From positions 1-32,297 of the forward strand of contig CAIQOY010000107.1 in NCBI GenBank assembly GCA_903873565.1: DNA of 32,297 bases, given 5' to 3'. Every line of letters starts with the position of its first letter. Position 1 is the first letter of the stretch. Both the position numbers and the translations under genes were made by a program. The stretch comes from an uncultured Actinomycetes bacterium (lineage in GTDB: Bacteria > Actinomycetota > Thermoleophilia > Gaiellales > F1-60-MAGs149). The notes under the pieces are model-generated. The model worked only from the letters and a program-made list of their open reading frames with translations. It had not been told where the DNA came from and made no database searches. This document shows positions 22,189-23,662 of the stretch, piece after piece.

Positions 22189-22280
22189 GCCCCAACCTTC
22201 GCACACGGTGCCGCCCGAGCCTGACGCGTCGCCGCCGACGACGGCCCCGACCAGCGACGGAACCGCGGGTTCGGCATCGA

Positions 22281-22349
22281 CAAGAGCGTCATAGTGGATC
22301 AGACAACACCGTCATTTCAGATCAGTAACAAGCGTCATTATGGACTAGT
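22281..22349. repeat. Three contiguous 23-bp direct repeats (iteron-like), core CGTCAT-N4-GAYYAG
   Basis: 22281 caagagCGTCATagtgGATCAGa / 22304 caacacCGTCATttcaGATCAGt / 22327 aacaagCGTCATtatgGACTAGt. Invariant CGTCAT recurs at exact 23-bp spacing (22287, 22310, 22333). Confidence 0.9.
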
Positions 22350-22366
22350 AGGACCACGGATTCGTC

Positions 22367-22372
22367 TAGAAT
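22367..22372 (+). promoter_or_regulatory. Predicted -10 element TAGAAT for the ATPase gene (leaderless)
   Basis: TAGAAT ends 6 nt before the GTG start at 22379, in a locally AT-rich segment. Confidence 0.55.
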
Positions 22373-22378
22373 CGGCCT

Positions 22379-23662
22379 GTGGCGGTTCACTACACCGAGC
22401 GGGTGGTCGACCGCGAGATCGGCATTCTGAGCCACGAGATCGCAGCCCTGTCGATCGAGGGCGCGAAGGCCGTCGGCAAGACCTCGACGGCACTGCGCAT
22501 CGCGCGCACCGTCCACCGACTGGACGACGAGGCGGCGCGAGCCGTGGCCGCCGCCGACCCGTCGCGGCTCCTGCAGGGCGCGACGCCGATCCTGATCGAC
22601 GAATGGCAGCGCCTCCCCTCCTCGTGGGACCTCGTCCGGCGCGCGGTCGACGAGCGGTCCCCGGGGCCGGGCAGCTTCATCCTGACGGGCTCGGCGTCAC
22701 CACACGCCGATGCGCCGATCCACTCCGGAGCCGGGCGGATCGTGACCGTGCGCATGCGGCCCATGTCCCTCGCCGAGCGCAACCTCCAGCCGCCCGCGGT
22801 CGGACTCGGCGAACTCCTGTCCGGCGAGCGCCCGACGGTGGCGGGCGAGACGCCGTTGCGCATCGCCGACTACGCGCACGAGATCACGGCGTCCGGTTTC
22901 CCCGGCCTGCGCGGGCTGCGCGGACGAGCGCTGCGGGCGCAGCTCGACGGGTACGTAGACCGGATCGTCGAGCGGGAGATCCCGGCCCTGGGCGTGGCGA
23001 CCCGCAACCCCGCGGCGCTGCGACGATGGCTCGCGGCCTACGCGGCGGCGAGCTCGACCACTGCCTCCTTCGAGGCGATCCGGGATGCCGCCACCGGCGG
23101 CACCGATGAGAAGCCCGCGAAGGCGACGGTGCGCCCCTATCGGGATGCGCTCGAACGACTCTGGGTCCTCGATCCGGTGCCGGCCTGGCTGCCGACCCGC
23201 AATCGCCTTCGCCGGCTCGCAGCGGCGCCGAAGCACCAACTCGTCGATCCGGCACTGGCCGCTCGCCTGCTCGGCGTCGACGCGGCGGCCCTGCTCGATG
23301 CCAGCACCTCGGGCTCCGCTCGCCACCGGGACGCACCCCTCCTGGGGGCCCTGTTCGAGGCGCTCGTGACGCTCGACGTCCGCGTCTACGCCCAGGCGTC
23401 GGAGGCGCGAGTGGGTCACCTCCGGACCGCGGGCGGCGAGCGCGAGGTCGACCTGATCGTCGAGCGCGCCGACGGACGCGTCGTGGCGATCGAGGTCAAG
23501 ATGACCGGCAGCGTTGACGATGCCGATGTGCGCCACCTCCGCTGGCTCCGCGAGCGGCTGGGCGATGACCTCCTCGATGCCGTGGTCATCACCTGCGGGC
23601 CCGCCGCCTACCGGCGCCCCGACGGCGTCGCGGTCATCCCGGCGGGCCTGCTCGGACCATGA
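22379..23662 (+). CDS. AAA ATPase with DUF4143-type C-terminal PD-(D/E)XK-like domain
   Basis: Walker A EGAKAVGKTSTA; Walker B PILIDEWQRLP; SFILTGSAS sensor-like; YVDRIVEREIPALG; C-terminal EREVDLIVERADGRVVAIEVKMT. The layout matches AAA_14/DUF4143 proteins. Confidence 0.88.
   Translation: MAVHYTERVVDREIGILSHEIAALSIEGAKAVGKTSTALRIARTVHRLDDEAARAVAAADPSRLLQGATPILIDEWQRLPSSWDLVRRAVDERSPGPGSFILTGSASPHADAPIHSGAGRIVTVRMRPMSLAERNLQPPAVGLGELLSGERPTVAGETPLRIADYAHEITASGFPGLRGLRGRALRAQLDGYVDRIVEREIPALGVATRNPAALRRWLAAYAAASSTTASFEAIRDAATGGTDEKPAKATVRPYRDALERLWVLDPVPAWLPTRNRLRRLAAAPKHQLVDPALAARLLGVDAAALLDASTSGSARHRDAPLLGALFEALVTLDVRVYAQASEARVGHLRTAGGEREVDLIVERADGRVVAIEVKMTGSVDDADVRHLRWLRERLGDDLLDAVVITCGPAAYRRPDGVAVIPAGLLGP

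Follow-up and report, generated by a model that had tools for sequence, protein, structure and literature searches.

Within the window, by which the whole stretch of 32,297 nucleotides analysed here is meant, the gene of an AAA_14-DUF4143 ATPase is preceded by an array of 23-bp direct repeats and followed by a tRNA-Sec gene on the opposite strand. The features to which we refer are the following, each given with its coordinates in the window and its strand:

22190..23661, no strand assigned: cassette of upstream stretch, array and gene, absent from the same-genus genomes G004 and G003
22285..22307, plus strand: putative operator unit 1, a direct repeat containing CGTCATAGTGGATCAG; register from the PWM over orthologs
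22308..22330, plus strand: putative operator unit 2, the direct repeat CGTCATTTCAGATCAG; PWM register; kept in the gene-less sister genome G001
22331..22353, plus strand: putative operator unit 3, the direct repeat CGTCATTATGGACTAG, over the -35 zone; PWM register
22354..22376, plus strand: slot 4, a degenerate unit in register (PWM) that holds the predicted -10; its assignment as a fourth unit is an inference
22367..22372, plus strand: predicted -10 TAGAAT, 6 nt 5' of the GTG start; read from the sequence, a leaderless mRNA being inferred
22379..23662, plus strand: AAA_14-DUF4143 ATPase, 427 aa, GTG start, PADLOC candidate PDC-S01 (ORF, Pfam, PADLOC)
22445..22777, plus strand: AAA_14 domain, residues 23-133, Walker A GAKAVGKT (Pfam)
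23009..23182, plus strand: winged helix-turn-helix (wHTH), residues 211-268, from the secondary structure of the AlphaFold2 model; the name is inferred from the topology
23120..23158, plus strand: predicted recognition helix, formed by residues 248-260; covariation with unit positions 11-17 is seen for residues 247-251
23429..23431, plus strand: codon of A351, which lies in a predicted PD-(D/E)XK-domain hairpin and varies together with unit position 6
23450..23500, plus strand: PD-(D/E)XK motif D358...E372-x-K374, from conserved columns; the name nuclease is taken from PF13635 and PMC12988326
23672-23765, minus strand: tRNA-Sec, anticodon TCA, 10 bp past the ATPase stop codon and abutting the cassette

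The hexanucleotide CGTCAT starts at positions 22287, 22310 and 22333, in exact steps of 23 bp, and is followed each time by N4 and then by GATCAG, GATCAG and GACTAG in units 1, 2 and 3, respectively, just as a first-pass annotation of this DNA had read it. The AT-rich pocket in which the repeats were said to lie is real (at the array the local GC is 0.59, down from about 0.75), and so is their singularity within the window, where the three units are the only exact matches to CGTCAT-N4-GAYYAG; with up to two mismatches there are 18 matches versus 6.3 expected. The rest of the 2.29 Mb assembly contains two more exact matches, both single and within long ORFs (contigs C224 and C363), and the motif is found as an array only once, at this site. 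A random scatter over the genome, which was named beforehand as a ground for giving up the proposal, is thus not observed. The array scores 32 bits versus a shuffle maximum of 19.

It had also been proposed that the array covers the -35 zone of a promoter whose -10 follows the third repeat at a distance of 17 nt. Unit 3 does span the -35 zone, and the predicted -10, TAGAAT, does follow it; the distance, however, is 18 nt, and the hexamer is not outside the array. It begins exactly 23 bp past the corresponding hexamer of unit 3, at the place where other orthologs have TAnnnT. Since TAGAAT is removed from the hexamer of unit 3 by one full period, the array is read as four slots, of which the degenerate fourth is, by inference from the register, the promoter in the window. 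It should be noted that a simple sigma-70 scan found no promoter here.

The ATPase is above the Pfam cut-offs for both PF13173 (AAA_14) and PF13635 (DUF4143, residues 198-375) and matches the PADLOC model PDLC04790 (PDC-S01) over residues 4-424 of 427 (E 4.1e-75); all 28 of 28 aligned relatives likewise match PDC-S01 models. In the alignment columns D358 and K374 are invariant and E372 is nearly so. The secondary structure of the AlphaFold2 model (mean pLDDT 90.8) was interpreted as comprising an AAA+ domain, a helical region that includes a wHTH (helices 211-223, 231-239 and 248-260) and an alpha/beta domain of the PD-(D/E)XK type. Its best fold matches in the PDB include 2qen (E 1.5e-6) and 2fna (1.1e-4), then Orc1/Cdc6 2qby (1.9e-4) and clamp loaders; an NCBIfam search and a PDB search by sequence gave nothing useful. 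According to PMC12988326, PDC-S01 is an ATPase fused to PD-(D/E)XK that ranks, as a candidate, fourth in frequency among the defences of prokaryotes; most such defence candidates still await validation. In the open-access literature we found neither a published test of antiviral activity of PDC-S01 nor a mechanism. The window's own assembly contains a second DUF4143 gene fragment (L045, G000:C99), a 194-residue open frame near a contig end.

The array is not confined to the window. Conservation upstream of orthologs was the check that the first-pass annotation had named, and it was run on 79 usable orthologs with 49-68% identity to the window ATPase, which belong to at least nine phyla (Actinomycetota, Acidobacteriota, Planctomycetota, Chlorobiota, Gemmatimonadota, Chloroflexota, Myxococcota, Gammaproteobacteria, Deinococcota). 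In an open scan of periods from 12 to 40 bp over the 200 nt upstream of the start, the best period was exactly 23 in 72 of the 79, shuffled sequences being flat, and it was again 23 in 14 of 15 orthologs held out. A plasmid ortholog from Prosthecochloris aestuarii (Chlorobiota, 59% identity) has the same motif with period 23, and this is also the best period of all eight viral-contig homologs (31-35% identity), in one of them weakly. In the ortholog L228 a strong array with the usual motif GATCAGTAGCG lies at -184 to -61 of the start and has a period of 19 bp.

When the set was widened to about 100 members of the family, the best period was 22/23 in 41 and 32/33 in 15, as compared with 5 and 4, respectively, in the members' own coding sequences. 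Strong 22/23-bp arrays are found at 22 of 87 ATPases versus none of 78 AAA_21 loci and one of 67 HTH_3 loci (1/145 controls). Only these independent loci were used for comparison; all other ORFs in the loci (22/322 with a strong 22/23-bp array) were set aside as a control because shadow and neighbouring ORFs share the array region. A chance origin of the array was rejected in view of its uniqueness in the genome, the shuffle scores and the control genes. The period class tracks the protein tree, requiring 8 changes, whereas none of 300 shuffles required fewer than 13.

This does not mean that every homolog has an array. Those of Thermus, Aminobacter and Aliarcobacter are among the ones without, and members lacking direct repeats often have large palindromes instead (36/61 versus 12/139 control upstreams), e.g., of 37-42 bp upstream of L058, L060, L077 and L023. 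A separate clade of the family (L067, L069, L070, L063, L097, L099, L052) has arrays of 32-33 bp in place of 22-23, and a genome of the same class (G107) has 24 DUF4143 matches (L030, L053, L085-L103), some with 33-bp arrays and others with palindromes. The homolog on pTT27 of Thermus thermophilus (L186) has no array. The AAA_14-DUF4143 gene TT_P0211 of T. thermophilus is reported to be 6.6-fold up when a plasmid is present (PMC4406477), but it has not been established that this gene and L186 are the same.

Iterative alignment of the units across orthologs yields a consensus of approximately TGCGAAATGGTAGCGTAG, whose right half contains TGGTAnnnT, an extended -10 (TGnTAnnnT). Of the 79 last units 63 have TAnnnT, versus 86 of the 186 upstream units. 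The last unit starts 19-24 nt before the start codon in 34 of 79 orthologs, which is the position expected for leaderless mRNAs. Usually, the last unit of the array is thus the promoter. Conservation extends to the left half, which is not a promoter element, and units that lack a -10 are retained upstream. In the arrays of L193 and L241 the copies of the unit are near-perfect.

That either a dedicated regulator or the ATPase itself binds the repeats had been inferred from the window alone. The conservation of the repeats upstream of orthologs supports this, binding remaining an inference, and of the two options that of the ATPase is favoured because the repeats covary with ATPase residues and no neighbouring gene recurs with them. 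The distance between motifs rises with that between proteins (Mantel rho 0.30, 0/500 permutations), the signal being strongest for residues 215-300, the wHTH region, and weakest for residues 345-427. The top pairs in mutual information, corrected for column averages, include K248 with unit position 11, A351 with position 6 and A249 with position 15, well above the permutation null maximum of 5.6 (APC-Z about 14 for the pairs of residues 248 and 351). Residue 248, the first of the recognition helix, is K with G at position 11 in 38 of 42 cases and R with T in 13 of 18. Residue 351 is R or K with C at position 6 in 33 of 33 cases and H, Q or W with G in 23 of 27; A351 goes with A in 3 of 3, the state of the window (CGTCAT). 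When phylogenetically independent pairs were counted on a tree built without the covarying columns, the changes went in the same direction for residue 249 and position 15 (8.7 v 0, p 0.004), residue 247 and position 15 (7.6 v 0, p 0.008) and residue 351 and position 6 (5.8 v 0, p about 0.03), and likewise in a fourth comparison (4.7 v 0).

The residue-base code was fixed in writing ahead of retrieving the 15 held-out orthologs. It was right in 8 of 12 cases at position 6 (R/K with C 4/4, H with G 4/4, Q 0/2, Y 0/2) and in 10 of 10 at position 11, though nine of these had the majority K/G state; position 15 was uninformative because every case had G. The enrichment of top pairs is moderate at both the N-terminus of the helix (p 0.003) and the hairpin (p 0.002), and other pairs of high covariation lie elsewhere in the protein (A422, S172, G240). 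From these it must be concluded that lineage effects have not been fully removed and that contact is not proven. The covariation, itself drawn from sequences only, should therefore be regarded as strong support for the ATPase reading the units and not as proof that it touches them.

The array and the gene also travel together. Among the 13 genomes of the same genus that were searched, the window's own included, G004 and G003 have neither array nor ATPase gene, the flanking genes being joined to tRNA-Sec. In G001, which is 89% identical, the stretch corresponding to 22190-22326 is kept with units 1-2 and is followed by tRNA-Sec without an ATPase gene. What remains there is an operator scar, two units spaced by 23 bp without the gene (L324, about 1460-1500). 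Since G003 and G004 lack both array and gene, G001 is best read as a case of gene loss, and the simplest history is that array and gene were gained as one cassette and that the gene was later lost in G001.

We consider it likely that the repeats serve as operator for a defence candidate that consists of a single gene and regulates itself, i.e., that the ATPase binds the units of its own promoter and most likely represses it. Binding to its own promoter and autoregulation are what the covariation with ATPase residues most probably indicates. What was computed comprises the array and its conservation, the link with the -10, the lack of a second such array in the genome, the joint movement of array and gene, and the residue-base covariation. 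That the protein physically binds, that it does so cooperatively via the AAA+ domain, that it represses and what triggers it are inferences, for which data on binding and expression are lacking. According to the mechanism that we propose the PDC-S01 ATPase would bind each 23-bp unit through two DNA-reading surfaces: the recognition helix of the wHTH would read the right half of the unit, overlapping the extended -10, and the hairpin of the PD-(D/E)XK domain would read the left half. With three to four units about two helical turns apart, several protomers could come to lie side by side over the -35/-10 region, where, once assembled, they would most likely repress transcription. Release of the protomers, and with it higher expression, would require a trigger, for which invasion, nucleotide state and titration come into question.

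How far other explanations can account for the same pattern has to be considered. It is unlikely that the ATPase binds the array for a main purpose other than repression, as an activator or at a site where the ATPase-nuclease is parked or marked and restrained until an invader comes. Yet activation or sequestration would leave the same sequence pattern as repression; the PD-(D/E)XK hairpin apparently reads the left half, which would place a nuclease on its own promoter, and the retention of upstream units without a -10 also fits. It is the coincidence of the last unit with the -10 in most orthologs that favours occlusion of RNA polymerase. We regard it as quite unlikely that a separate transcription factor, encoded by the host or by an element, binds the repeats and has the ATPase merely as target gene. 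Small dedicated repressors on direct-repeat operators do occur in defence islands (RptR, PMC12255303), but at most six of the 79 ortholog loci share any one family of neighbouring genes, and a small repressor gene dedicated to the operon is missing. Moreover, the motif is kept over all these phyla as well as on plasmids and viral contigs, and where its bases change they do so in step with residues of the ATPase.

That the repeats are the insertion target or the end of a mobile element carrying the ATPase is very improbable, even if the cassette adjoins tRNA-Sec and is missing from sister genomes and even if two units have outlived the gene in G001. The array is on the promoter side with its last unit on the -10, no matching repeat is seen in the window at the other end of the cassette, and G003 and G004 have no array where they have no gene. 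Hardly tenable is the notion that the arrays are tandem -10 elements or products of replication slippage without any protein reader: the right half of the unit is indeed an extended -10, and the near-perfect copies in L193 and L241 suggest duplication, but the left half is conserved and covarying without being a promoter element, the period has stayed at 23 over deep divergence, and control genes have no array. Iterons of plasmid replication were considered and rejected. The arrays lie at single-gene promoters, mostly on chromosomal contigs, and the neighbour is not a rep gene but AAA_14-DUF4143. The term iteron-like, which was initially given to the repeats, is therefore unsupported in the sense of a replication origin.

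The operator read by its own ATPase may have a wider meaning, which we put forward only tentatively and would not be surprised to see refuted. Each copy of this family of defence ATPase-nucleases could have a private operator, read by winged helix and PD-(D/E)XK domain via a residue-base code; the array would both repress the gene and restrain the ATPase-nuclease until an invader disturbs the array or competes for it, and the geometries of the clades (22, 23 and 33 bp, palindromes) would allow many copies in one genome without cross-talk. Whatever becomes of this idea, a conserved, protein-specific operator is a first handle on PDC-S01, offering a defined DNA ligand and a predicted code at named residues, and the promoter can be used on a reporter to find the trigger. 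The findings also suggest that the DUF4143 / PD-(D/E)XK module can be a sequence-reading domain and how, where DUF4143 matches number up to 24 in one genome, the paralogs could be kept under separate control.

A search of the open-access literature, from which subscription papers and most preprints were excluded, turned up no published account of these operators. An autoregulated operator is of a known kind; an effector ATPase-nuclease that apparently reads gene-specific arrays via a residue-base code across phyla appears to be new. The window protein is a member of PDC-S01 (AAA_14-DUF4143, COG1373-like), for which the consulted passages of PMC12988326 describe no operator or regulation, so that the self-read promoter repeats are an addition made here. 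The archaeal AAA+ ATPases PABY2304 (2qen) and SSO1545 (2fna) are alike in fold with only 13-16% identity. We know of no operator for either of them. Orc1/Cdc6 (2qby) is likewise an AAA+ ATPase with DNA-binding domains, sitting on origin DNA. Orc1/Cdc6 proteins act at replication origins and, to our knowledge, involve neither a PD-(D/E)XK domain nor a leaderless promoter. In mycobacteria an SSO1545-like ATPase domain is part of the promoter-binding transcription regulator IniR, which differs in activating iniBAC on trehalose and in having another C-terminal DNA-binding domain (PMC5760070). In the case of RptR, three direct repeats overlap the -10 of a phage-defence island promoter, and the protein represses its own promoter (PMC12255303). 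The likeness lies in direct repeats that overlap the promoter of the regulated gene, and, by analogy, RptR is a working precedent for such an arrangement over the -10. RptR, however, is a separate 9-kDa homodimer that has 9-bp repeats with a TAGCTA palindrome (PMC12255303), whereas here the units are 23 bp long and the presumed effector, the ATPase itself, is apparently their reader.
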